The notes under the pieces were generated by a model, which made no database searches, had not been told where the DNA came from, and was given only the letters and a program-made list of their open reading frames with translations. The translations under genes and the position numbers were made by a program. Below, one piece after another: positions 44,106-57,664 of a DNA stretch of 64,000 nt. The stretch comes from Marinobacter arenosus (GTDB lineage: Bacteria > Pseudomonadota > Gammaproteobacteria > Pseudomonadales > Oleiphilaceae): contig NZ_JAHVAO010000001.1 of NCBI RefSeq assembly GCF_019264345.1, positions 2,666,001 through 2,730,000 on the forward strand, in the 5' to 3' direction. Numbering within the stretch: the first letter of the stretch is position 1; each line of letters starts with the position of its first letter.

Positions 44106-45707
44106 TCAGTGCGTGTTTCTGTCCCAGTAAGGAGCGCGCAGCTCCCGTTTGAGCACCTTGCCGATGGTTGAGCGCGGCAGCTCCTCCCGGAACTCGAGGC
44201 GGGCCAGACGCTGGGACTTGCCCAGCCGTTCATTGGCCCAGTCGAGGATGTCGGCCACGCTCTCGGTGTACCCGGGGCGCCTTACCACCAGTCCCAGCGG
44301 GGTTTCGCCCCAGTGCTCACTGGGAATCCCGATGACCGCGGCATCCGCCACGGCCGGATGGGTCAGGAGCACGTTCTCCAGATCCACCGCGTAGATGTTG
44401 AACCCCCCGGAAATGATCATGTCCTTGCGACGGTCGAGAATGTAGACGAAGCCGTCCTCGTCTATGCGTCCCATATCGCCGCTGCGGTAGAAAATCTCGC
44501 CTTCCGGGCTGGTCCACAGCATCTCCTGCGTCTGTTCGGGCCGGTTGATGTAGCCGCGCATCATCGAGATGGCGCGCCCGACAATCTCGCCAATCTCGCC
44601 CTGCCCCAGTTCCCGGCCTGCCTCGTCAATCACTCGTACCTCGGCGCCTTCGGTGGGCGTTCCTACCGACTCCCACTTGTCCGGGTGGGCGGCACAGTCC
44701 AGACAGGTGGAAATGCCGCCCTCGGTCAGGCCATAGACTTCCCGGATGTTGCCGGGCCAGCGGGCCATGGCATCGGCGATGATCTCGGCCCGTAAGGGCG
44801 CACTGGTGCAGAGTTTCAAGCGGTAGCTGGACAGGTCAAACCGGTCGAAATCCGGTTCGGCCAGGATGCGCTGGTACTGCACCGGGACCAGCATGGCGTG
44901 GGTGACCCGGTGCTGCTCCGACAGCTCCAGGAACCGGTGCGCGTTGAATTTCGCCATCAGGACCAGGGTGCCGCCGTAGAAGAGGGTCGGCAACACCGAC
45001 ACCAGGGTGGTGTTGGAGTACAGCGGGGTGGAAACCAGGTTGATGGCATCGCCGTCCAGACCGAACCGGCTCATGCGCCGGATCTGGCGCTGGCGGAACC
45101 GGTAGTCGTGCAGGATGCCCTTGGGCGTGCCGGTGGTGCCGGAGCTGTAGATGATATTGAAGGGATCGTCCAGGGTGACGGGCGCCGGCGCAGGGGTTGC
45201 AGAGGCGCCGTTCAGCCACTCAGTGAGACCGGGACCGATGCCCTCACCGTTGCCGCAGAGCGCCAGAATGCGACTGTCGTCCAGGCTCGTCAGCTGGGAC
45301 CGAAAGGCCTGCAACAGCTCGGCATTTTTGGGGGAGACGAACAGGAACCGGGCCTCGCAGTCCGCCAGCATCAGGGTCAGCGAGTCTGAACTCGCCATGC
45401 CGGACAGCGGCACCATACACCCGCCCGCCACCAATGTGCCCAGGTACAGCGCGACATAGTCCGCGCTGTTCTCGGACAGGGCCGCGACCGACTGGCCCGG
45501 TTCGAGCCCGGCCTCCCGGAGGCGGTTGGCAATCCGGTTGACCCGGTCCATCAGGTCGCGCCAACTGACGGTCTCCCGCTCGTCAATGAGCGCGGGTTGG
45601 TCGCCCCGCTGCGTGGCGTGCGTCTGAATCTGGTGTCCGATGGGGGTCAGGGTTTCCCCGGCCTCCGCGGGTGCATAGACGGGCATCGATTGCATGTTGT
45701 TTTTCAT
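44106..45707 (-). CDS. AMP-dependent acyl-CoA ligase (first)
   Basis: A 533-residue ANL-family enzyme that activates a carboxylic acid with ATP and CoA. P-loop YSSGTTGTPKG (about residues 189-199), YGLTEGG, SGDMG and the C-terminal hinge DRRKDMIISGGFNIYAVDLE are intact, and the catalytic Lys is in STIGKVLKREL near the end. No membrane segment. Diverges from the SDR operon at 45853; substrate not predictable, but the TRAP importer next door may supply it. Confidence 0.92.
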   Translation of the reverse strand: MKNNMQSMPVYAPAEAGETLTPIGHQIQTHATQRGDQPALIDERETVSWRDLMDRVNRIANRLREAGLEPGQSVAALSENSADYVALYLGTLVAGGCMVPLSGMASSDSLTLMLADCEARFLFVSPKNAELLQAFRSQLTSLDDSRILALCGNGEGIGPGLTEWLNGASATPAPAPVTLDDPFNIIYSSGTTGTPKGILHDYRFRQRQIRRMSRFGLDGDAINLVSTPLYSNTTLVSVLPTLFYGGTLVLMAKFNAHRFLELSEQHRVTHAMLVPVQYQRILAEPDFDRFDLSSYRLKLCTSAPLRAEIIADAMARWPGNIREVYGLTEGGISTCLDCAAHPDKWESVGTPTEGAEVRVIDEAGRELGQGEIGEIVGRAISMMRGYINRPEQTQEMLWTSPEGEIFYRSGDMGRIDEDGFVYILDRRKDMIISGGFNIYAVDLENVLLTHPAVADAAVIGIPSEHWGETPLGLVVRRPGYTESVADILDWANERLGKSQRLARLEFREELPRSTIGKVLKRELRAPYWDRNTH

Positions 45708-45763
45708 TTTCTGCCGCTCCGGTGCTATGGTGTTTTATCTAGTGAAATTACCTTTCGAATATA

Positions 45764-45792
45764 TTGACTCAAAACCGGAAGGCGTGACAAAT
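45764..45792 (+). promoter_or_regulatory. Candidate sigma70 promoter of the SDR-ACAD operon
   Basis: TTGACT, a 17-bp spacer and ACAAAT lie about 60 bp before the first SDR start codon. The -35 is good and the -10 is weak. Confidence 0.45.
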
Positions 45793-45852
45793 TAATGAGC
45801 AAGCTAAAACCGCCAAGACAAAAACAATGCAGACACATGAGGGGTAAGTGGC

Positions 45853-46647
45853 ATGGCGCGTTTTGATAACCGGACGGCCATCGTGACCGGTGCCGGCAGC
45901 GGAATTGGTCGGGCAACCGCGCTGCGTCTGGCCCGGGAAGGGGCCCGCGTGGTGATGGCAGATACCTCCGAAGCGGGACTGGTGGAAACCGAAAACAGCC
46001 TGCCCGAGGGCTCGGAATGCCTGCGCCGTGTGGTGGACGTAGCCGACGAAGCGCAGGTGGCGGCTCTCGTGGACGAGACCCTGGCCAGCTTCGGCAAGAT
46101 CGATGTCCTGTGCAACATCGCCGGCATCGCCAGCACCACGGGCAACCACCCGCCGGTGACGGGCAATGAGCGGGAGGAGTGGGACAAGGTCCTGTCGGTA
46201 AACCTGGTGGGTACCATGCTCCTGATCAAGCACGTGGCGCCACACATGCAGGCCCGCAAGCTGGGTTCGATCGTCAATACGGCGTCGGTAGCGGGCATTC
46301 GCTCCGGCGCCGGCGGTAACGCCTACAGTGCCTCCAAGGCGGGTGTGATCAACCTCACCATGACCGCGGCCTGCGATCTGGGCGCCGACAATGTCCGGGT
46401 GAACGCGGTCTGCCCCGGCCTGGTCGAGAGTGGCATGACCCGGGCGGTGTTCGATTACGCCCGCGCCAACGAAAAAGCCCACAAGCTGGGCTCCCGCTGC
46501 GAACTGCGGCGCTACGGCGACCCCGAGGAAATTGCGGCGGCCATCCTGTTTCTGGCCAGTGACGACGCCAGTTACATCACCGGCCAGGCCTTGGCGGTGG
46601 ATGGTGGCAACACCGCGTCACTCAACCTGCCGGGGATGAAAGTCTGA
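45853..46647 (+). CDS. SDR family oxidoreductase (first)
   Basis: A 264-residue NAD(P)-dependent dehydrogenase/reductase. Cofactor motif TGAGSGIGRAT (about residues 12-22), NIAGIAS, catalytic YSASK (Tyr about 158) and the C-terminal GQALAVDGG are intact. It opens an operon of about eight genes up to 53750 and overlaps the thioesterase gene (TGATG). By context it likely interconverts a hydroxy- and keto-acyl-CoA. Confidence 0.9.
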   Translation: MARFDNRTAIVTGAGSGIGRATALRLAREGARVVMADTSEAGLVETENSLPEGSECLRRVVDVADEAQVAALVDETLASFGKIDVLCNIAGIASTTGNHPPVTGNEREEWDKVLSVNLVGTMLLIKHVAPHMQARKLGSIVNTASVAGIRSGAGGNAYSASKAGVINLTMTAACDLGADNVRVNAVCPGLVESGMTRAVFDYARANEKAHKLGSRCELRRYGDPEEIAAAILFLASDDASYITGQALAVDGGNTASLNLPGMKV

Positions 46648-47087
46648 TGGGCGATCACGATTCCGAGTTCCTCCATGGCACCGAGCTGCCAGGCTTCCAC
46701 AGCCTGCTGGGTTATCAACAGGCGGAATGGGGCGAGGGCGAGGCGGTCATTGCGCTGGAACTCCAGCCCCGGCACCTGAACCTCGCCGGCGTGATTCACG
46801 GCGGCGTACTGACCTCGCTGCTGGACATCGCCATGGCGCAGGCCGGCACCTATTGCCCCTATCCCGGTCGAATGCGCAAGGCCATCACCCTGTCGCTGAC
46901 CACCACGTTCACCGGCCAGTGTTCGGGCGGAACCATCCGCGTGACGGGCCGCAAGCGTGCCGGTGGTTCCCGGATTTTCAACAGCACCGGTGAAGTCCAC
47001 GATGACCAGGGCAACCTGCTGGCCATTGCCGAAGGCACCTTCCGGATCCGGTCTGGCAGCGACAAGCCGGAAGGTGTCCCGATCTGA
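46647..47087 (+). CDS. PaaI-type hotdog thioesterase
   Basis: A 146-residue hotdog-fold protein. The PaaI motif is LNLAGVIHGGVLTSLLDIAMAQA (about residues 46-68) with HGG and the following Asp. It would hydrolyse an acyl-CoA, releasing CoA from stalled or side-product intermediates. It starts inside the SDR stop codon and is 32 bp before the acyl-CoA dehydrogenase. Confidence 0.9.
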   Translation: MGDHDSEFLHGTELPGFHSLLGYQQAEWGEGEAVIALELQPRHLNLAGVIHGGVLTSLLDIAMAQAGTYCPYPGRMRKAITLSLTTTFTGQCSGGTIRVTGRKRAGGSRIFNSTGEVHDDQGNLLAIAEGTFRIRSGSDKPEGVPI

Positions 47088-47119
47088 ATTTTTGACAAGA
47101 CCAACAAGAGGAAGCGGGC

Positions 47120-48322
<1,203 letters not shown>

Positions 48323-48340
48323 GTCGAGTATGAGGATCGA

Positions 48341-49111
48341 ATGATGAACAACCCGCTTTTTGACATGACCGGCAAGGTGGCCCTGATTACTGGCTCCACC
48401 AAGGGTATTGGCCGTTCCATTGCGGAAGAAATGGCGCGCCTGGGCGCGAAAGTCGTCATCTCCAGCCGCAAGGCCGACGCCTGCGAGCAGGTGGCCAACG
48501 AGCTGAAGGAGCAGGGCTTCGAGGCCCTCGCCATTCCCTGCCATGTCGGTAAGAAAGAAGACCTGCAGAACCTGGTCGAGAAAACCAACGCAACCTGGGG
48601 TGCCATCGATGTCCTGGTGTGCAACGCCGCCACCAACCCGGTCTACGGCCCGACGTCGGAAATGACCGACGAGGCCTGGGACAAGATCATGGACACCAAC
48701 GTCAAGGGGACCTTCTGGCTCACCAACATGGTGCTGCCGCAGATGGCCGAGAAAGGCGAAGGCGCCGTGGTACTGCTGTCCAGCATCGCCGGTATCCGGG
48801 GCAACACCACCATCGGCACCTACGGCGTGTCGAAGGCCGCGGAAGCGGCGCTGGCCCGGAACCTGGCGGTGGAGTGGGGCCCGAAGGGCATCCGCATCAA
48901 CAGCATCGCCCCCGGCCTGATCAAGACCGACTTCGCCAAGGCGCTGTGGGAAGACCCGGTTCGGGTCAAGCGCGCGGAAGACAAGACGCCGCTTCGGAGA
49001 ATCGGCGATCCGGTCGACATCGCCGGGCTGGCGGTGTTTTTGTCCACCAAGGCCAGTGCCTATATCACCGGGCAGGTGATTGTCGCTGACGGTGGTGAAA
49101 CCATTTGTTGA
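48341..49111 (+). CDS. SDR family oxidoreductase (second)
   Basis: A 256-residue SDR resembling DHRS4/FabG-type carbonyl reductases. TGSTKGIGRS (about residues 15-24), the NADPH-favouring SSRK after beta2, CNAATNP, YGVSKAA (Tyr about 160) and GQVIVADGG are intact. A plausible role is reducing a 4-oxoacyl-CoA to the 4-hydroxy form ahead of the kinase, like LvaD in levulinate breakdown; this is inferred. Good ribosome site GAGGAT. Confidence 0.9.
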   Translation: MMNNPLFDMTGKVALITGSTKGIGRSIAEEMARLGAKVVISSRKADACEQVANELKEQGFEALAIPCHVGKKEDLQNLVEKTNATWGAIDVLVCNAATNPVYGPTSEMTDEAWDKIMDTNVKGTFWLTNMVLPQMAEKGEGAVVLLSSIAGIRGNTTIGTYGVSKAAEAALARNLAVEWGPKGIRINSIAPGLIKTDFAKALWEDPVRVKRAEDKTPLRRIGDPVDIAGLAVFLSTKASAYITGQVIVADGGETIC

Positions 49112-49140
49112 GGCAGGGCCTTTTGATTGGCGGTGGGCCG

Positions 49141-49224
49141 GCGAGTGGGTTGCCTTTCTTCCGGGAAAAAGAACTCGCTGCGCTCAGACACCTTTGTTCC
49201 CTGCAGAAAGGCAACCCACCCGCC
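49141..49224. repeat. Long inverted repeat between SDR and kinase genes
   Basis: A perfect 14-bp repeat (GTGGGTTGCCTTTC at 49145-49158 and its complement at 49206-49219), extended outward with one mismatch, encloses about 47 nt containing CTCGCTGCGCTCAGAC. It is an intergenic element of REP-like type; no transposase is nearby. Confidence 0.75.
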
Positions 49225-49280
49225 GTCCGCTGAATCCGTTGCGGGCTGCGGTACGCAAAGAGTTAAAGAAGGCTGAGACG

Positions 49281-50345
49281 ATGAGTATTGAGCCGGAGTT
49301 GGTGGAGGTTCTGCCAGCGCACAAATTTGACGAGTCCGGGCTTTTGGTTTGGCTGCAACAGGAGTTGCCGGAGATTGGTAGCCGCTTGGAGGTCAAACAA
49401 TTTCAGGGTGGCCAGTCCAATCCCACGTTCCTGCTGGATACCGACAGTGGCCGTTACGTCCTGCGCAAAAAACCGCCTGGAAAGACGCTGCCCTCCGCCC
49501 ACATGGTGGAGCGCGAATATAAGGTGATGCGCGCCCTGTCCGAGCACACCGACGTGCCGGTTCCCAGGGTTCGGTTGCTGTGCGAGGACAGCGAGGTCAT
49601 CGGCACGCCGTTTTACGTCATGGACTACCTGGAAGGCCGGATCGTCAGCCATTCGGCCTTGCGGGCGCTGGACCGTCATGAACGACTGCCGGCCCATCAC
49701 TCTGCCATCGACACCCTGGCGAAACTGCATTCGGTGGACGTCAACGCTGTCGGCCTGGGCGACTTTGGCCGGCCCGAGGGTTACGTGGCCCGTCAGGTGT
49801 CGCGCTGGACCAAGCAATATCTGGCCTCCAAGACTGACGATATGCCGGCCATGGACCAGTTGATGGCGTGGCTGCCCGAAAACCTCCCTGCCAATGATGA
49901 GTGCGCCATCGCGCACGGGGACTACCGGTTCGGCAACCTGATGCTGGCGCCGGATAAGCCCGAGGTGATCGCGATCCTGGACTGGGAGCTGTCCACCCTT
50001 GGGCATCCGCTGGCGGACCTCGCCTATTACTGCCTGCCTTATTACCTGCCCTCGGATATGGAAGGGATGCGGGGGTTGCAGGGGGAGGACCTTGAAGCGC
50101 TGGGGATTCCCGACGAGCAGGAAACCATCGCCCGCTACTGCGCCCAGACCGGTCGCGACGGCATTGAGGACTGGCACGTGTACCTGGCGTTCTCGCTGTT
50201 CCGTCTCGCGGCAATCCTGCAGGGGGTCTACAAACGGGCCCTGGATGGTAACGCCGCGAACGCCAATGCCCTGGATGTGGGTAAACGGGCCAGTCTGCTT
50301 GCCCAGGTGGGCTGGAAGATTGCCAGCGAAGGAGCAAAGCGATGA
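49281..50345 (+). CDS. APH-fold small-molecule kinase, ACAD10/ACAD11 kinase-domain type
   Basis: A 354-residue kinase of the aminoglycoside phosphotransferase fold: Lys in YVLRKKPPG, catalytic HGDYRFGNLM (about residues 210-219) and metal-binding ILDWELSTLGHP (about 230-241). In animals this domain is fused to the ACAD10/11 dehydrogenase and in Pseudomonas putida the comparable LvaA phosphorylates 4-hydroxyvaleryl-CoA. Here kinase and dehydrogenase are separate genes in one operon. Start at 49281 is chosen by ribosome site AAGG and homology. It overlaps the surE-like gene by ATGA. Confidence 0.88.
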   Translation: MSIEPELVEVLPAHKFDESGLLVWLQQELPEIGSRLEVKQFQGGQSNPTFLLDTDSGRYVLRKKPPGKTLPSAHMVEREYKVMRALSEHTDVPVPRVRLLCEDSEVIGTPFYVMDYLEGRIVSHSALRALDRHERLPAHHSAIDTLAKLHSVDVNAVGLGDFGRPEGYVARQVSRWTKQYLASKTDDMPAMDQLMAWLPENLPANDECAIAHGDYRFGNLMLAPDKPEVIAILDWELSTLGHPLADLAYYCLPYYLPSDMEGMRGLQGEDLEALGIPDEQETIARYCAQTGRDGIEDWHVYLAFSLFRLAAILQGVYKRALDGNAANANALDVGKRASLLAQVGWKIASEGAKR

Positions 50346-51121
50346 CCGGACCCATTGTTCAACGCATCCTGATCACCAACGACGACGGCATCAACGCACC
50401 GGGGTTGGCGGTACTGGAAGCGATTGCCGGGAACCTGGCCGAGGAGGTCTGGGTGGTGGCGCCGGAGCACGATCGCAGTGGCGCCGGGCAGAGCATTTCC
50501 ATTCACGACCCGCTGCGGGTGTACGAAACCGGCCCGAAACGCTATGCGGTGTCTGGTACGCCGGCGGACTGCGTGCTCTATTCCCTGGCCAAGTGGTTTG
50601 AAGAGACCCCGCCGGACCTCGTGTTGTCAGGTGTGAACTGTGGCGCCAACATCAGTGATTCGGTGCAGTACTCCGGCACGGTCGGGGCGGTGCTGAGCGC
50701 GGTGCACATGAACATCCCCGCCATTGCCCTCAGCCAGGCGTTCCTGTCCCGCGAGGGGATCCGGTGGGACCCGGTGCAGCGCTTTGGCGAGGCTGTGATT
50801 CGCATGCTCTGGCAGCCGGATACGGTTCGGGCCTGGAACGTCAATTTTCCGGCCTGCGAGGCCGGTGCCATTGACCGGGCGCGCTGGTGCCGGCAATCCA
50901 CCGGTTCGATTCAGCGAGCCCGCCTGATGGCGGGCCGGGATGCCCGGAGTCTTCCTTATTGGTGGCTGGGGTTTGACCGCAACTCCCAACACATCGTTGC
51001 CCCGGACGCCGACGTGACCGTGCTGCGGAACCAGGCCATCGCCATCACCCCCCTACGACACGAAGACCCCCTGCCCGGGGGCGTCAACGAATTCGATCTG
51101 TCCGCATTGGCGGCTGACTGA
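50342..51121 (+). CDS. surE: SurE family phosphatase
   Basis: A 259-residue SurE-fold enzyme. The metal site is visible: ILITNDDGINAPGL (about residues 9-22), the PEHDRSGAGQSIS loop and SGVNCGANISDSVQYSGTVGA with the Asn ligand. Classical SurE is a 5'/3'-nucleotidase next to pcm and rpoS; this copy instead overlaps the kinase gene in an acyl-CoA operon and is presumably a specialised paralogue. It might remove phosphate from dead-end phosphoacyl products or salvage nucleotides; neither is shown. Confidence 0.88.
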   Translation: MTGPIVQRILITNDDGINAPGLAVLEAIAGNLAEEVWVVAPEHDRSGAGQSISIHDPLRVYETGPKRYAVSGTPADCVLYSLAKWFEETPPDLVLSGVNCGANISDSVQYSGTVGAVLSAVHMNIPAIALSQAFLSREGIRWDPVQRFGEAVIRMLWQPDTVRAWNVNFPACEAGAIDRARWCRQSTGSIQRARLMAGRDARSLPYWWLGFDRNSQHIVAPDADVTVLRNQAIAITPLRHEDPLPGGVNEFDLSALAAD

Positions 51122-51141
51122 TTAAAACCTGGAGAACAACA

Positions 51142-52818
51142 ATGATGTTCACGCGCCATTACAAGGTCTGGCCCCACGAACTGCCCAAGACCATGACCCT
51201 GCCGAAGACCAGTGTGTTCACCAATCTGGAGATCTCGGCCCAACGGTTTCCGGACCACACGGCGATCATTTTCTACGATGCACCGATCACCTACCGTCGG
51301 CTGCTGGATGAGGTCGAGGCCATGGCGGGCTACCTGCAGGCCCAGGGCGTCAAGAAGGGTGACCGGGTGCTGCTGTACATGCAGAACTCGCCCCAGTACG
51401 TCATTGCCTACTACGCCATTCTCCGTGCGGATGCCGTGGTGATTCCGGTCAACCCGATGAACCGGGCGGCGGAACTGGAGCATTACATCGCCGATACGGG
51501 GGCTTCCGTGTGCCTCGCCGGCCAGGAGCTGGCCGGATTTATTTCGCCGTTGCTGATGGAAACCGATCTTGAACAGGTGGTGGTGGCGTCCTACAGCGCT
51601 TACATCAAGCCAGATACCGATCTGGACCTGCCGGCGGAAGTGGCGGCGCCGGTGTGGTCCGAAGAGCGCCCCGGCATGGTGAGCTGGGAAGCGGCCATGG
51701 CCGCTCATCACACGCCGGCGCCCCACACCGCGACGCCGGAGGACCTGGCGGTCATTCCCTACAGCTCCGGAACCACCGGTGCGCCCAAGGGCTGCATGCA
51801 CACCCACCGGTCGGTGATGGCCACGGCCGTCCATCGGGTGTTCTGGAATCTGAGCACCCCGGACAGCGTGCAGCTGGCCACCCTGCCGTTCTTCCACGTG
51901 ACGGGCATGACCGGCTCCATGAACGGTCCCATTTACAGCGGTTCGACATCCGTGATCATGACCCGCTGGGAGCGCACCACGGCGGCGCGCCTCATTGAGC
52001 GCTACAGCGTCACCGGCTGGACCAACATCGTGACCATGGCGGTGGACTTCCTGTCCAATCCGGACATCGGCAAGTACGACCTTTCCAGCCTCAACATGAT
52101 CGGGGGCGGCGGCGCCGCCATGCCGGTTGCGGTGGCTGAAAAACTGAAAGCGATGACCGGGCTGGACTACATCGAAGGCTATGGCCTGTCCGAGACCATG
52201 GCAGCGACCCACATCAATCCGAACGCCAACCCCAAACCCCAGTGCCTGGGCATCCCGGTGTTCGACGTGGACAGCCGCATCATCGATGTGGAAACCCTGG
52301 AAGAAAAGGCCCCGGGCGAGACCGGCGAGATTGTCTCCTGTGGCCCCCAGGTCACGATCGGCTACTGGAACCGACCGGCGGAGACCGAGGCGGCCTTTGT
52401 GGAAATCGACGGCAAACGCTTCTTCCGCACCGGAGATCTGGGTTACTACGACGAGGATGGCTATTTCTTCATGGTCGATCGGGTCAAGCGCATGATCAAC
52501 GCCTCGGGCTTCAAGGTCTGGCCGTCCGAGGTGGAAGGTCTCATGTACCGGCACCCGGCCATCCATGAGGTCTGCATCATTTCCTCGCCCGATCCCAAGC
52601 GGGGCGAGACCGTGAAGGCCTGCATCGTGCTGACTCCGGAGGCGGACGGCAAGACCACGGTCGAGGACATCACCGGCTGGTGCAAAGAGCAGATGGCTGC
52701 CTACAAGGTGCCCACGCTGGTCGAGTTTGTCGACTCGCTACCGAAGTCCCCTACGGGTAAGCTGATGTGGCGAGCTCTGCAGGAAGAGGAATGGCAGAAA
52801 GAGGAACGACGGGCATGA
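51142..52818 (+). CDS. AMP-dependent acyl-CoA ligase (second)
   Basis: A 558-residue ANL ligase with P-loop YSSGTTGAPKG (about residues 208-218), YGLSETM, TGDLGYYDEDGYFFMVDR, the hinge KRMINASGFKVWPSEVE and the catalytic Lys in SPTGKLMWR. It resembles long/medium-chain fatty acyl-CoA ligases. It follows surE by 20 bp with a good ribosome site and overlaps the next gene by ATGA. It likely activates the acid degraded by this operon. Confidence 0.93.
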   Translation: MMFTRHYKVWPHELPKTMTLPKTSVFTNLEISAQRFPDHTAIIFYDAPITYRRLLDEVEAMAGYLQAQGVKKGDRVLLYMQNSPQYVIAYYAILRADAVVIPVNPMNRAAELEHYIADTGASVCLAGQELAGFISPLLMETDLEQVVVASYSAYIKPDTDLDLPAEVAAPVWSEERPGMVSWEAAMAAHHTPAPHTATPEDLAVIPYSSGTTGAPKGCMHTHRSVMATAVHRVFWNLSTPDSVQLATLPFFHVTGMTGSMNGPIYSGSTSVIMTRWERTTAARLIERYSVTGWTNIVTMAVDFLSNPDIGKYDLSSLNMIGGGGAAMPVAVAEKLKAMTGLDYIEGYGLSETMAATHINPNANPKPQCLGIPVFDVDSRIIDVETLEEKAPGETGEIVSCGPQVTIGYWNRPAETEAAFVEIDGKRFFRTGDLGYYDEDGYFFMVDRVKRMINASGFKVWPSEVEGLMYRHPAIHEVCIISSPDPKRGETVKACIVLTPEADGKTTVEDITGWCKEQMAAYKVPTLVEFVDSLPKSPTGKLMWRALQEEEWQKEERRA

Positions 52819-53750
52819 GCGAACACCCGAGCATTCTGATTGTCGGCGCCGGTGCTATCGGCGGTTTTTACGGTGCCATTCTCAAGCAGGCCGGCTGTCC
52901 GGTCAGCACGGTACTGCGCTCGGAATACGACGTGGTGAAAGCACAGGGTATCCGGATCAGCAGTCCGCTCGGGGATCTGTCCTATCGTCCCGATCATGTC
53001 TACCGTGACGGCGACACGCCGGAGGTACCGCCGGATTACCTGATCCTGTGCGTCAAGGTGTTACCCGGTGTCGACCGGGCAGAACTGGTGCGGCCCTGGA
53101 TGGGACCGCACACCCGCCTGGTGCTGATCGAGAACGGTCTGGACATTGAGCGGGAGCTGGCGGAGGCGTTCCCGGACAACCCCATCATCAGCTGCCTGGC
53201 GTTCATTGCCGCCAGCCGCACCGAACCGGGCGTGGTGGAGCACAAGGCCTACGGCAAGCTGGTCATGGGGCGTTACCCCGAGGGCATCGATGAGGATTGT
53301 CGGCGACTTTCCGAGCGGTTTGTCGAGGGCGGCATCAAGGTCGACCTGACCGAAGCCGTGGTGGGGGAGCGCTGGCGCAAATGCCTGTGGAATACCCCGT
53401 TCAATCCGCTGTCGGTCATCGCCAACGGCGCGGACACCCGAACCATCCTCGACACCGAGGGTGGCGAAGCACTGATCCGGGCGATGATTGCCGAGGTGAT
53501 GGCGGTGGCTGCAGCGGAGGGCTACCCCATGGACGAGTCGCTGATTGACCAGAACATCGACGGCACCCGCAAGATGCCGCCCTACAAGAACAGCATGGCC
53601 CTGGACTACCTGAACGATCGTCCCATTGAGCGCGATGCCGTACTCGGTAACGTGGTCGCCATCGCCGAGCGTCATGGCATCGCCGTTCCCCACCTGAACA
53701 CCGTGCTGGTTACGCTGAAGATGCGTGCCGCGCTGGAGGGCCGGGCCTGA
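52815..53750 (+). CDS. Ketopantoate reductase (PanE/ApbA) family protein
   Basis: A 311-residue NADPH-dependent reductase with the Rossmann motif ILIVGAGAIGGFYG (about residues 7-20), the LCVKV segment, the catalytic-Lys region WRKCLWNTPFNPLSV and the C-terminal domain PPYKNSMALDYLNDRPIE. True PanE makes pantoate for CoA synthesis. In this operon it more likely reduces another 2-keto or beta-keto acid; that is inferred from context. Start at 52815 overlaps the ligase stop. Confidence 0.85.
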   Translation: MSEHPSILIVGAGAIGGFYGAILKQAGCPVSTVLRSEYDVVKAQGIRISSPLGDLSYRPDHVYRDGDTPEVPPDYLILCVKVLPGVDRAELVRPWMGPHTRLVLIENGLDIERELAEAFPDNPIISCLAFIAASRTEPGVVEHKAYGKLVMGRYPEGIDEDCRRLSERFVEGGIKVDLTEAVVGERWRKCLWNTPFNPLSVIANGADTRTILDTEGGEALIRAMIAEVMAVAAAEGYPMDESLIDQNIDGTRKMPPYKNSMALDYLNDRPIERDAVLGNVVAIAERHGIAVPHLNTVLVTLKMRAALEGRA

Positions 53751-53766: not shown

Positions 53767-54222
53767 TCAGATTACGTACATCACCAGGTTTTCCGCGACA
53801 CAGGCAGGCTTGTCCTCGCCCTTGATCTCCACGGTGGTGTGGTAGCTGGCCAGATACCGGTGCTCGTCCACCTGACTGACGTCCAGCAGTTCGACCCGGG
53901 TGCGGATGTCCGAGCCGGCTTTCACGGCCGAGGGAAACCGGAGCTTGTTCATGCCGTAGTTGATGCTGGCGGTGGTGCCGCTTACCTGCAAAACCTGGGT
54001 GTTGAGCTGGGGAATCAGCGACACGGTCAGGAAACCGTGGGCCACCGGGCTCTTCCAGGGGGCTTCCCGGCGAGCCCGCTCCACATCCACGTGAATCCAC
54101 TGGTGATCCCCGGTGGCGTCGGCGAACGCCTGGATCATCGCCTGGGAGATGGTGTGCCAGGGGCTGTGGCCGATGACCTTGCCTGTGTAGCGGTTCAGTT
54201 CGTCGAGTGACGGGGTGAGCAT
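53767..54222 (-). CDS. MaoC-like hotdog dehydratase
   Basis: A 151-residue MaoC/R-hydratase family protein. The hydratase motif is present: FADATGDHQWIHVDVERA (Asp and His about residues 36-44) and SPVAHGFLTVSL. It would hydrate an enoyl-CoA to an (R)-3-hydroxyacyl-CoA. It lies 10 bp after the class II aldolase gene and is convergent with the ketopantoate-reductase-like gene. Confidence 0.9.
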   Translation of the reverse strand: MLTPSLDELNRYTGKVIGHSPWHTISQAMIQAFADATGDHQWIHVDVERARREAPWKSPVAHGFLTVSLIPQLNTQVLQVSGTTASINYGMNKLRFPSAVKAGSDIRTRVELLDVSQVDEHRYLASYHTTVEIKGEDKPACVAENLVMYVI

Positions 54223-54232
54223 GGCATTCTCC

Positions 54233-54994
54233 TTAAACCGCGTAGCCCGGATTCTTGCTGTCGAGCAGGCGCAACAGTGCCGGCCAGGTGAGTTTGGCCG
54301 CCGCGCCCAGGTTCTGTGATTGCTCGGCGGTGGTCTGAACAGCCTGTTCCGACGGCATCCAGGTGGGGCCGCAGCTTTGCGCCTTGACCTGAATTTCGCA
54401 GGCCTTCATCAGGAAGTACAGGTAGGTGAAGGTTTCCGGCACGGTCTGGCCGGCGGTCAGTACGCCGTGATTGCGCAACAGCATCATTGACTTGTCGCCC
54501 AGGTCCCGGATCAGCCGTTCCCGCTCGTCCAGGTTCAGGGCAACGCCCTCGTAATCGTGGTAGCTGAGGTGGTCCAGGCACAGCATGGCGGTCTGGCTCA
54601 GGGGCAGCAGGCCATCCCGGTGCGCCGACACGGCCACGCCGTCGGCAGCGTGCAGGTGCATGACCGCACCGGCATCCTCGCGTCCCATATGGACGGCGCT
54701 GTGGATGGTGAACCCGGCCGGATTGACCCGGGCAAGACCGCCGGCCGCCACCACCTCGCCCTCGCGATCCACCTTCACCAGCGACGACGCCGTGATCTCA
54801 TGGAACAGCAGGCCATAGGGGTTGATCAGGAATTGATGGTCGGGGCCGGGCACCCGCGCCGACAGGTGGGTAAAGACCAGGTCGTCCCAGCCGAACAGCG
54901 CCACCAGCCGGTAGGCGGCCGCCAGTTCGGTACGTACCTGCCATTCCGCTTTGTTCAGGGTGTCGGTGTTGGTGCGTTGGGTGTCTGTTGTCAT
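54233..54994 (-). CDS. Class II aldolase/adducin family protein
   Basis: A 253-residue protein of the fuculose-aldolase/adducin fold. The zinc-binding His residues are seen in FTHLSARVPG, HLHAADGVAVSAH (MHLHA, about residues 112-116) and LLRNHGVLTAG. No signal peptide. The start at 54994 follows GAGG; the longer frame would begin inside the terminator upstream. Possible role: retro-aldol cleavage of a hydroxyacyl intermediate, which the neighbouring MaoC and dehydrogenase pair could generate. The substrate is unknown. Confidence 0.87.
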   Translation of the reverse strand: MTTDTQRTNTDTLNKAEWQVRTELAAAYRLVALFGWDDLVFTHLSARVPGPDHQFLINPYGLLFHEITASSLVKVDREGEVVAAGGLARVNPAGFTIHSAVHMGREDAGAVMHLHAADGVAVSAHRDGLLPLSQTAMLCLDHLSYHDYEGVALNLDERERLIRDLGDKSMMLLRNHGVLTAGQTVPETFTYLYFLMKACEIQVKAQSCGPTWMPSEQAVQTTAEQSQNLGAAAKLTWPALLRLLDSKNPGYAV

Positions 54995-55021
54995 TGTGAT
55001 CACCTCAGTTGGTCCGGAACC

Positions 55022-55052
55022 AAAAAAAGGGGGTGGCCTGAAGGGCACCCCC
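55022..55052 (-). terminator. Terminator between the dehydrogenase pair and the aldolase gene
   Basis: GGGGGTG-CCCTTCAGGC-CACCCCC-TTTTTTT on the minus strand. A second stem (GGACCTCT/AGAGGTCC) lies just upstream. Aldolase and MaoC transcription is thus partly or fully uncoupled from the dehydrogenases. Confidence 0.88.
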
Positions 55053-55105
55053 GAACAGGACCTCTGACTGGAAGGAGAGAGGTCCCAGGCTCACTATCGA
55101 AGGGG

Positions 55106-56248
55106 TTAGCTGGCCTGTAACAGACTGGCGTACCGTTCCAGGTGGAAATCATCGTCGCCCAGCTGATGGTTGATCATGATCAGCCGCTTGGCGTAGTGGG
55201 CGAAGTTGTATTCCCAGGTCATGCCGATGCCGCCGTGGGACTGGATGCCGTTCTCGGAGATGAACTGGCCACTGCGGCCAATCACGTTCTTCGCGGCCGC
55301 CAGAATCCGGCGCCGCTCGTCGCTCTGCTCCGCGTCGGCAACGCTGGCCGCCAGGATGGCCATCGAGCGGGCCTGTTCCAGCTCGGACATCATGTCCACC
55401 ATGCGGTGCTGGAGGACCTGGAATTTGCCGATGGGCACGCCGAACTGCTTGCGCTGCTTCAGGTAATCCAGGGTCAGCTCGTTGGCCATTTCCATGACGC
55501 CCACGGCTTCGGCGCACAGGGCCGCAATGGCGCGGCCACTCTGGTATTCAATCACCTCGCCAGCCTCGCCTGCCGCTCCCAGCAGGGCGTCGGCGCCAAC
55601 CTTGACGTTGGTCAGGGTGATGTCGCAGCCCCTGGAACCGTCGATCGTTGGGTAGGTCCGGCGCTCGACACCGTCGGTGTCCGGGCTCAGGGCGAACAGG
55701 CTGATGCCGTCGGTATCGCGGCTGTCACCGGAGGTGCGGGCGGACACCAAGATCAAGTCGGCACAGTGGCCGCCGATCACCACGGCCTTGCGGCCATTGA
55801 GTACGTAGCCGTCACCGGATTTTTCGGCGCGGGTCTCCACATCGTTCAGGTTGTAGAAGCTCTGCGGCTCCTGCAGTGCCACGGCGGCCCTGAGCTCGCC
55901 ACTGGCAATACCGGCCAGCCATTGTTCTTCCTGGCTGTCGTTGCCGGCGTGGGCAATCAGGCCGCCGCCCAGAATCACGGATTGCAGGTACGGTTCAAGG
56001 CACAGGCCACGGCCGAGCTCAGTCATGACCGACTGGACCTCGACGCCGCCTCCGCCGAAGCCGCCCAGTTCCTCGGAGAAGGGAACGGCGGTCAGGCCGA
56101 GTTCGCTCAGCTGTTTCCAGAAATCCTCGCTGAACCCGGCCTCGGTTTCGCTGAATTCCAGGCGCTTCTCAAAACTGTATTCACCGCGCACCAGGCGGGC
56201 CACGGTGTCCTGCAGCATCTGCTGCTCTTCGTTCAGTCGGAAATCCAT
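55106..56248 (-). CDS. Acyl-CoA dehydrogenase, likely one subunit of a heteromeric enzyme
   Basis: A 380-residue acyl-CoA dehydrogenase (MDFRLNEEQQMLQDTVARL, AVALQEPQSFYNLNDV, IGKFQVLQHRMVDMMSE, IQSHGGIGMTWEYNFAHYAKRL). The FAD/substrate contact MTEPxxGSD of ordinary members is replaced by LQEPQSFY. Pairing of a short divergent and a standard member is typical of the alpha2beta2 dehydrogenases that act on bulky, cyclic or steroid side chains. It follows the other subunit gene by 10 bp. Confidence 0.9.
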   Translation of the reverse strand: MDFRLNEEQQMLQDTVARLVRGEYSFEKRLEFSETEAGFSEDFWKQLSELGLTAVPFSEELGGFGGGGVEVQSVMTELGRGLCLEPYLQSVILGGGLIAHAGNDSQEEQWLAGIASGELRAAVALQEPQSFYNLNDVETRAEKSGDGYVLNGRKAVVIGGHCADLILVSARTSGDSRDTDGISLFALSPDTDGVERRTYPTIDGSRGCDITLTNVKVGADALLGAAGEAGEVIEYQSGRAIAALCAEAVGVMEMANELTLDYLKQRKQFGVPIGKFQVLQHRMVDMMSELEQARSMAILAASVADAEQSDERRRILAAAKNVIGRSGQFISENGIQSHGGIGMTWEYNFAHYAKRLIMINHQLGDDDFHLERYASLLQAS

Positions 56249-56258
56249 GGTCGCCTCC

Positions 56259-57455
56259 TTAAAGCCCGAGAATCATTTTCGACACGATGTTCTTCTGGAT
56301 CTCGTTGGACCCGCCGAAAATCGAGAGCTTGCGATTGTTGAAGTACTGGGCGGAAAGCGGTGCTGCGTTCTCGTCCGACAGGAAGTCACCGTCGTAGTCG
56401 AGGTTGAGTTCTTCCTCCACGAACGGGATGGCGTAGGGACCAATGGCCCGGCGCGCCAGGTCATTGATCGACTGACGGATTTCCGTGCCCTTCACTTTCA
56501 GCATGGAGCTTTCGGCACCGGGTACACCGCCACCCTCGACCGACGCAATGATGCGCAGGTTACTGATGGCGGCGGCCGTCAGGTCGATCTCGACCTTGGC
56601 AATGCGCTGGCTGAAGGATGGATCCTCGATAAGCGGGCGACCGTTCTTGATACGGCGCGAGGCCAGCTGCTTCAGGTGCGCCAGCGCCGCCTTGGACATG
56701 CCGATCCCGGCCAGCCCGGTCCGCTCGTAGGTGAGCAGGTACTTGGCGTAGGTCCAGCCCTTGTCTTCCTCGCCGACCAGGTTCTCCACCGGGACCTTCA
56801 CGTCCTCAAAGAAGACCTCGTTCACCTCGTGCTCACCGTCAAGAGTGATGATCGGCCGCACGGTGATGCCCGGCGTATTCATGTCGATCAGCAGGAAGGA
56901 TATGCCTTCCTGGGCCTTCACCTCGGTGTTGGTGCGAACCAGGCAGAAAATCATGTTGGCGTGCTGGCCCAGGGTGGTCCAGGTCTTCTGGCCATTCACG
57001 ATGTAATGGTCACCGTCGCGCACGGCGCGGGTTTTCAACGAGGCCAGGTCAGAACCGGCGCCCGGCTCGGAATACCCCTGGCACCACCAGTGTTCGCCAC
57101 TGAGGATGCGTGGCAGGTAATGCTGCTTCTGTTCATCATTGCCGAACTTGATGATGACCGGCGCCACCATGTTAACCCCGAATGGAATGGAGCGGGGCAC
57201 CCCGTAGCGGCAGGACTCCTCGTCCCAGATGTGTTTCTGCACCGGGGTCCATTTGACGCCGCCGTATTCTTCCGGCCAGTGGGTGGCATACCAGCCCTGA
57301 GTCACGAGAATCTTCTGCCACCGCTGATGGTCCTCTTTGGACAGGCGGCGGAAGCCTTTCACTTTGGCGGCGATGTCTGCCGGCAGCTTCTCATCCAGGA
57401 ACGCGCGCACTTCATCACGAAAAGCGAGTTCCTCGGCTGTGTAGTTCATGTTCAT
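56259..57455 (-). CDS. Acyl-CoA dehydrogenase, likely partner subunit
   Basis: A 398-residue acyl-CoA dehydrogenase (NYTAEELAFRDEVRAFLDEKLP, GYSEPGAGSDLASLKT, VNGQKTWTT, YERTGLAGIG, IFGGSNEIQKNIVSK). The EPGAGSD flavin loop is intact. The start is the ATG at 57455 preceded by GAGG; a TTG two codons upstream is less likely. It heads the leftward operon with the second dehydrogenase. The two together probably introduce a 2,3-double bond in a bulky acyl-CoA. Confidence 0.91.
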   Translation of the reverse strand: MNMNYTAEELAFRDEVRAFLDEKLPADIAAKVKGFRRLSKEDHQRWQKILVTQGWYATHWPEEYGGVKWTPVQKHIWDEESCRYGVPRSIPFGVNMVAPVIIKFGNDEQKQHYLPRILSGEHWWCQGYSEPGAGSDLASLKTRAVRDGDHYIVNGQKTWTTLGQHANMIFCLVRTNTEVKAQEGISFLLIDMNTPGITVRPIITLDGEHEVNEVFFEDVKVPVENLVGEEDKGWTYAKYLLTYERTGLAGIGMSKAALAHLKQLASRRIKNGRPLIEDPSFSQRIAKVEIDLTAAAISNLRIIASVEGGGVPGAESSMLKVKGTEIRQSINDLARRAIGPYAIPFVEEELNLDYDGDFLSDENAAPLSAQYFNNRKLSIFGGSNEIQKNIVSKMILGL

Positions 57456-57664
57456 GGGCAACCTCGTTTTGCATCACAGCGAAAATATATACCGCATAGC
57501 AGAATTACCTAATGATCGGTCACCGACAGCGTGTCTGTCAATGTCAATGAAACACAAAACCCGAAACCTGGCCGTACGCATTCCTGAAATTTACTTTGAT
57601 GGGTTGTGCTGACAAAAACCTTCATTTAACCTTCGGTTCTCGGAAATTAGTACTGCTTAGTGAA

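Follow-up and report, generated by a model that had tools for sequence, protein, structure and literature searches.

A Marinobacter operon predicted to degrade 4-hydroxy acids by ACAD10/11-type chemistry, with a SurE-family phosphatase gene linked to its kinase

An eight-gene operon at positions 45853-53750 of a 64-kb window (the whole stretch of DNA analysed) from contig C1 of a Marinobacter genome of 4.11 Mb very probably serves the catabolism of 4-hydroxy (or 4-oxo) carboxylic acids, as judged from its protein sequences, by the phosphorylation-elimination core chemistry of ACAD10/11-type acyl-coenzyme A (CoA) dehydrogenases (ACADs). The pathway chemistry is already known, and the operon joins a group defined by the levulinate (lva) system and by ACAD10/11. 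New are (i) a fixed gene for a SurE-family phosphatase and (ii) a wider link between kinase and phosphatase genes, of which one earlier published remark was found, for Pseudomonas citronellolis (PMC6692424, accessible part), in a literature search thin on subscription journals. It was as recently as 2024-2025 that the 4-hydroxy-acid pathway was assigned to ACAD10 and ACAD11.

An earlier sequence-only reading of this DNA had proposed an operon of eight genes with a kinase, a dehydrogenase, short-chain dehydrogenases/reductases (SDRs) and a ligase. All eight predicted open reading frames (ORFs) are present at or close to the coordinates of that reading and are co-directional (+), in the order SDR1, thioesterase, ACAD, SDR2, APH-fold kinase, SurE, ligase and PanE-like reductase, and the concordant Pfam and NCBIfam assignments bear the proposal out. 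The genes are closely spaced: base 46647 belongs to both SDR1 and the thioesterase, the kinase and SurE overlap by 4 bp, as do the ligase and the PanE-like gene (with the start of the latter set at 52815 for this overlap), and gaps of 32 bp (thioesterase-ACAD), 18 bp (ACAD-SDR2), 169 bp (SDR2-kinase) and 20 bp (SurE-ligase) separate the others. The kinase start is the ATG at 49281, within a longer mechanical ORF (49080-50345). No sigma-70 promoter was found in 45600-45900. Conservation was followed in the best 80 of at least 531 candidate loci fetched by kinase alignment (the 80-locus set), which overlaps the other sets used here (L071, L081, L092, L102 and L140 are L032, L034, L035, L270 and L038, respectively). 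The features of the operon, with counts from this set, are as follows.

45853..46647, + strand: SDR1, short-chain dehydrogenase/reductase, accessory (PF13561, 3.8e-67; 41/80 kinase loci)
46647..47087, + strand: hotdog-fold thioesterase, PaaI-like, accessory (TIGR00369, 54.6 bits, cut-off 36.6; 41/80 kinase loci)
47120..48322, + strand: ACAD10/11/LvaC-type acyl-CoA dehydrogenase, predicted to eliminate phosphate from 4-phosphoacyl-CoA (structure matches, residues, tree)
48341..49111, + strand: SDR2, candidate 4-oxoacyl-CoA reductase with a putative LvaD role (PF13561, 5.1e-66; 77/80 kinase loci)
49112..49280, + strand: intergenic hairpin, one of 16 genomic repeat copies, probably outside the pathway (repeat search)
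49281..50345, + strand: APH-fold kinase, predicted 4-hydroxyacyl-CoA kinase (PF01636, 3.1e-54; ACAD11 kinase domain, 3.4e-87)
50342..51121, + strand: SurE-family phosphatase of a kinase-linked subfamily (PF01975, 5.3e-55; NF001490, 245.5 bits, cut-off 233)
51142..52818, + strand: AMP-forming acyl-CoA ligase, PRK08314 type, predicted to activate the substrate (NF006181, 880 bits, cut-off 705; 60/80 kinase loci)
52815..53750, + strand: PanE/ApbA-like reductase, occasional and not core (PF02558, PF08546; 9/80 kinase loci)

By homology, the dehydrogenase is a member of the ACAD10/11 group. Among solved structures it matches ACAD11 (8v3u, 1e-149; 2wbi, 1.4e-148) and a bacterial relative (4hr3, 9.9e-138), while the next structural class, the short-chain ACADs, follows at only 2.8e-41, and its identity to mouse ACAD11 is 59%. 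Structure, modelling and substitutions of ACAD11 assign phosphate binding to R626, H634 and R637, a part in positioning the acyl chain to R631 and the role of catalytic base to D753 (PMC12440821, accessible part). Residues R254, R259, H262, R265 and D381 of the window ACAD correspond to R626, R631, H634, R637 and D753 of the mouse enzyme, so that the HCMR motif, an upstream Arg and the catalytic Asp are all in place, and the same five functional residues are kept in the second-copy ACAD of this genome. In a survey of the order, which examined 106 of 121 ACAD10/11-type matches (the locus of the window and 14 others being left out), R626, H634, R637 and D753 are kept in 56/56 ACADs from loci with a kinase, compared to 0/10 ordinary ACADs of this genome. 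In a quick tree, the window ACAD and mouse ACAD11 are among 31 ACAD10/11-type rows that a single branch parts from the 10 ordinary ACADs of this Marinobacter genome, with a value of 99 in the Shimodaira-Hasegawa-like approximate likelihood ratio test (SH-aLRT). The structure matches, functional residues and tree rule out an ordinary beta-oxidation operon. They also agree with the sequence-only reading, whose quoted ACAD10/11 motifs are in the translation of the gene at 47120 and whose suggested check, clustering with ACAD11 or with ordinary dehydrogenases, places the protein with ACAD11.

ACAD10/11-type loci with no such kinase in the stretch are also common in the order (n = 50, e.g., L149, L151 and L161), and the phosphate-binding residues are kept in 49/52 of their ACADs.

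The kinase matches a bacterial structure (3dxp, 4.7e-106) and the kinase domain of ACAD11 (3.4e-87), in keeping with the earlier suggestion that it resembles the APH domain fused to the dehydrogenase in animals. The catalytic residues D214 and N219 and the CoA-binding R171 are all kept, corresponding to D220, N225 and R176 of mouse ACAD11. An Arg beside the alpha-C Glu is also kept (R78, E79); the published R86 is placed inexactly and falls at 84 in this numbering. The window kinase is nearer in sequence to the kinase domain of mouse ACAD11 (45% identity) than to the other such kinase of its own genome (33%). The window kinase and ACAD both match ACAD11 far better than they match ordinary ACADs or other APH-fold enzymes, and the pair is predicted to use ACAD10/11 chemistry. 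Bacterial kinase and ACAD orthologues can stand in for the domains of ACAD10 (PMC11342911, accessible part).

In the proposed route, the ligase would form the CoA thioester, SDR2 would reduce the 4-oxo group where one is present and the APH-fold kinase would phosphorylate the 4-hydroxyl of the acyl-CoA, an activity predicted from checked residues and from homology to ACAD10/11 and bacterial orthologues. The ACAD, by means of flavin adenine dinucleotide and the checked phosphate-binding Arg/His cluster, would then expel phosphate to yield a 2-enoyl-CoA for beta-oxidation. A core step for the PanE-like reductase is ruled out by its scatter (9/80 loci, or 10 by a looser listing).

We infer a substrate that is probably longer or bulkier than levulinate from three features: a PRK08314-type ('long-chain') ligase, an ACAD11-like kinase and the presence of a second, lva-like cluster in the genome. 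This second cluster (L023, C2:236001-252000) comprises genes for LysR, ACAD, SDR, kinase, histidine phosphatase (PF00300, 6.8e-24) and a further SDR. Its kinase is 28% identical to the ACAD11 kinase, and a figure of 29% is published for LvaA and the ACAD10/11 kinases (PMC11342911, accessible part). The second copy, rather than the window copy, thus appears to be the LvaA-like kinase, an assignment set by the published figure. Likewise, the lva cluster described for P. citronellolis, in which a histidine phosphatase gene lies beside the lvaA homolog together with ACAD, SDR and ligase genes (PMC6692424, accessible part), is matched in layout more closely by L023 than by the window operon.

These comparisons bear on whether the operon is a dedicated lva operon for levulinate (C5), which is distinctly unlikely. 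Roles like those of lvaA, lvaC, lvaD and lvaE are present (role list from the accessible part of PMC6692424), and the sequence-only reading had matched the operon to the lva pathway on this ground. The role match stands, with a single operon encoding the kinase, the ACAD, an SDR and the ligase; the closer lva layout, however, is that of the second cluster. The long-chain type of the ligase, the greater identity of the window kinase to the ACAD11 kinase (45%) than to the second-cluster kinase (33%) and the lack of an lvaB-size gene between kinase and SurE also speak against a C5 operon. No regulator (LvaR, sigma54-type) was found among the operon genes and scanned neighbours, in a scan that covered part of the window genes.

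The SurE gene is near-constant. The 80-locus set includes SurE in 75 loci, SDR2 in 77, the ACAD in 67, the ligase in 60, SDR1 and the thioesterase in 41 each, LivH- and LivK-type transporter genes in 29 each and PanE in 9. The earlier reading had listed SurE, the thioesterase and PanE as additions to the lva set; all three are present, but PanE is only occasional. Where linked, SurE lies within 1 kb of the kinase (75/80 loci); of the five loci without it, three are on short contigs (L112, L136, L147) and two apparently lack the gene (L090, L111). The pairing spans five families: Marinobacteraceae, Pseudomonadaceae, Alcanivoracaceae, Ectothiorhodospiraceae and Hydrogenophilaceae. Among the matches listed, all kinase loci of at least 74% identity are from Marinobacter. 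In four Ectothiorhodospiraceae loci the gene order is altered and SurE is on the opposite strand, while in Tepidiphilus (Hydrogenophilaceae) SurE overlaps the kinase. Since SurE is linked even where order and strand differ, its association with the kinase persists through changes elsewhere in the locus. SurE also accompanies the kinase in 12 loci of the set with no such ACAD in the stretch; six of these have more than 8 kb of upstream sequence and six, near contig ends, carry little information.

The link extends to a second phosphatase family. In the order survey, a phosphatase gene is found in 41 of the 56 loci with a kinase (36 histidine phosphatase and 5 SurE) and in 0/50 loci without one (Fisher 4e-17), whereas presence of the ligase shows no association with the phosphatase (p = 1). 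These counts leave out L036, which was fetched for its SurE, and use a histidine phosphatase profile built from the kinase-linked subfamily, so that other histidine phosphatases could escape. As background, this genome has five PF00300 matches and two SurE. A phylum survey of 40 of 107 kinase matches, hand-picked for spread and with 3/40 from the same order, found a histidine phosphatase in 10, SurE in 1 and neither in 29; three of its loci pair a histidine phosphatase with the kinase in stretches that contain no such ACAD. In the order survey, the phosphatase gene adjoins the kinase or lies about 1.2 to 1.4 kb off, the space of one ACAD gene, in one of three layouts (kinase-SurE, kinase-histidine phosphatase and histidine phosphatase-ACAD-kinase); in the phylum survey, 2 of the 10 histidine phosphatase genes lie at distances of 2.3 and 3.6 kb (L258 and L260). 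In a quick tree of 117 kinases, all 27 SurE-linked rows fall in one clade of 32 (98). The 41 rows linked to histidine phosphatases are found mainly in two clades (99 each), one of 29 rows with 19 of them and one of 26 rows with 21; 1 lies elsewhere. Fusions of kinase to phosphatase were sought as extra proof, and none is present among 7 scanned of 19 over-long frames: five kinase or SurE frames contain the expected single domain, and two ACAD frames contain ACAD domains only.

Thus, it is the kinase rather than the ligase that the phosphatase tracks. In this part of Gammaproteobacteria the pattern is common without being general, because the link is weaker outside the order (9/37 kinase loci with a phosphatase). 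The tracking bears on another account of the same core pathway, in which SurE acts as a nucleotidase that removes the adenosine monophosphate (AMP) made by the ligase and so pulls activation forward. SurE family members are named 5'/3'-nucleotidases, and SurE adjoins the ligase in the window. This account loses weight because presence of the phosphatase goes with that of the kinase (41/56 vs 0/50) rather than of the ligase; furthermore, 18 loci of the 80-locus set contain SurE but lack a ligase within the stretch (some on short contigs), and a histidine phosphatase takes the place of SurE in the sister cluster L023. Removal of AMP is therefore considered an unlikely role.

The linked phosphatases differ in how well their active sites are preserved. 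At least 90% of the 76 aligned rows of kinase-linked SurE keep each of the residues N13, D14, D15, S46 and N99, and catalysis is likely. The linked histidine phosphatases keep R8, H9, G10, R53 and E80; their catalysis is uncertain, because Ser replaces the second catalytic His. Loss of this residue would suit a role in which the phosphatase regulates the kinase by contact and not by catalysis. Such a role is proposed for the HAD domain of ACAD10, which restrains its kinase with negligible phosphatase activity (PMC11342911, accessible part). The catalytic residues D14, D15, S46 and N99 of the linked SurE proteins argue against regulation by contact, which is judged improbable here.

The preferred guess, which we hold tentatively, is that SurE dephosphorylates 4-phospho-acyl compounds that escape turnover, as a repair or to limit their build-up. 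The targets could be a hydrolysed free phospho-acid (e.g., one released by a thioesterase), a slow isomer or excess phospho-acyl-CoA. Free 4-phospho-hydroxyhexanoate is seen in cells (PMC11342911, accessible part); therefore, stranded phospho-acid does arise. For P. citronellolis, the authors suggest that the histidine phosphatase may strip phosphate from 4-phosphovaleryl-CoA (PMC6692424, accessible part). One kinase is thus associated with three phosphatase folds that are unrelated to one another (SurE, the histidine phosphatase and the ACAD10 HAD domain), which points to a shared need. In the broader proposal, which is put forward with similar reserve, the kinase-driven catabolism of 4-hydroxy acids needs a counter-acting phosphatase that clears stranded 4-phospho-acids or sets the level of 4-phosphoacyl-CoA; at least SurE and a histidine phosphatase without its second catalytic His would have been recruited into the operon of the kinase for this purpose, with the HAD domain of ACAD10 as an animal echo.

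Several observations weigh against these readings of the operon and its phosphatase. The phosphatase is not obligatory, because 15/56 kinase loci in the order and 28/37 outside it have neither SurE nor a histidine phosphatase; beside such kinases, no further phosphatase was recognised in the gene lists and the start of 16 neighbouring frames, which were read without a Pfam scan. The Fisher value overstates independence, as the survey rows are related sequences. Ser is found in 36/36 of the linked histidine phosphatases at position 166, which we take to be the usual site of the second catalytic His of the family. As a known nucleotidase, SurE could have AMP as its substrate. For the pathway itself, no lvaB (12 kDa) is present beside the kinase, where the flanks are SDR2 and the overlapping SurE, the places to which the search was confined. 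A phosphatase encoded by its own gene beside this kind of kinase makes it possible to ask with purified proteins whether a phosphatase is needed and on which intermediate it acts. The operon also supplies an ACAD11-like kinase/dehydrogenase pair for work on 4-hydroxy acids and gamma-lactones.

The operon is flanked by a ligase gene divergent from SDR1 and by a convergent operon at 53767-57461 (-), which includes MaoC, class II aldolase-like, PimD-like and PimC-like genes, the last two encoding ACADs.

44106..45707, - strand: second AMP-forming ligase, divergent from SDR1 (PF00501, 4.3e-75)
53767..54222, - strand: MaoC-like hydratase of the convergent neighbour operon (PF01575, 5e-24; 24/36 Marinobacteraceae stretches)
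55106..56248, - strand: PimD-like acyl-CoA dehydrogenase of the neighbour operon (TIGR03203, 402 bits, under the cut-off of 653)
56259..57461, - strand: PimC-like acyl-CoA dehydrogenase of the neighbour operon (TIGR03204, 496 bits, under the cut-off of 624)

The neighbour operon may be part of the same route, because many Marinobacter, and a few genomes further afield, have it next to the locus. An alternative account combines this with a bulky, branched or dicarboxylic substrate, in whose degradation the PimC/PimD-like enzymes would act. In many Marinobacter the locus has both the PimC/PimD-like pair and MaoC as neighbours, the pair recurs nearby in 3/6 Ectothiorhodospiraceae and in Tepidiphilus, and a branched-chain-amino-acid-type ABC transporter is encoded 3' of the ligase in many relatives. 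By contrast, both ACADs score under their family cut-offs, the pair is on the opposite strand in the window and it was not found in 25 Pseudomonadaceae and 11 Alcanivoracaceae stretches; a route of this kind is thus regarded as possible but rather doubtful. In one Marinobacter (L032:11677-13794), a VgrG gene (TIGR03361, 616 bits) is directly 3' of the operon ligase.

The gap between SDR2 and the kinase (49112-49280) contains a hairpin of about 100 nt with its loop at 49172-49188, which is probably outside the pathway. The genome has 15 further copies (16 in total, L293-L308), 12 of the 16 inside 224 kb of one contig and several as close opposite-facing pairs. The tip of the family is conserved as TCTGAGCGCAGCGAGTT (at most 1 mismatch; a control pattern gave 0 matches), and the lower arms are long and differ between copies yet pair with themselves. 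In 18 relatives the same gap is short or contains hairpins with other arms. The window copy matches no Rfam family at cut-off, and the tip string is absent from the full-text literature searched.

Compared to known systems, the operon shares with mammalian ACAD10 and ACAD11 a kinase, an ACAD of the phosphate-eliminating type and the functional residues examined; against mouse ACAD11, identity is 59% for the ACAD and 45% for the kinase. It differs in that the two activities are encoded by separate genes of an operon that also includes a ligase, SDRs, a thioesterase and SurE; where ACAD10 has a degenerate HAD phosphatase domain, the Marinobacter operon has the SurE gene. The lva operon of Pseudomonas putida (LvaA-E) resembles it in its roles, those of a kinase, an ACAD, an SDR and a ligase (as listed in the accessible part of PMC6692424), while SurE, the thioesterase and PanE are extra in the window operon and no lvaB-size gene lies by its kinase. 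The lva cluster of P. citronellolis is similar in that kinase, phosphatase, ACAD, SDR and ligase occur together (PMC6692424, accessible part), but its phosphatase is of the histidine family, like that of L023, and that of the window operon is SurE. Finally, the window SurE has the family and catalytic residues of the canonical SurE nucleotidase, yet is only 31-33% identical to the other SurE of its genome, and 83/83 kinase-linked SurE rows (the window included, in overlapping sets) score higher to the window SurE than to that other SurE.

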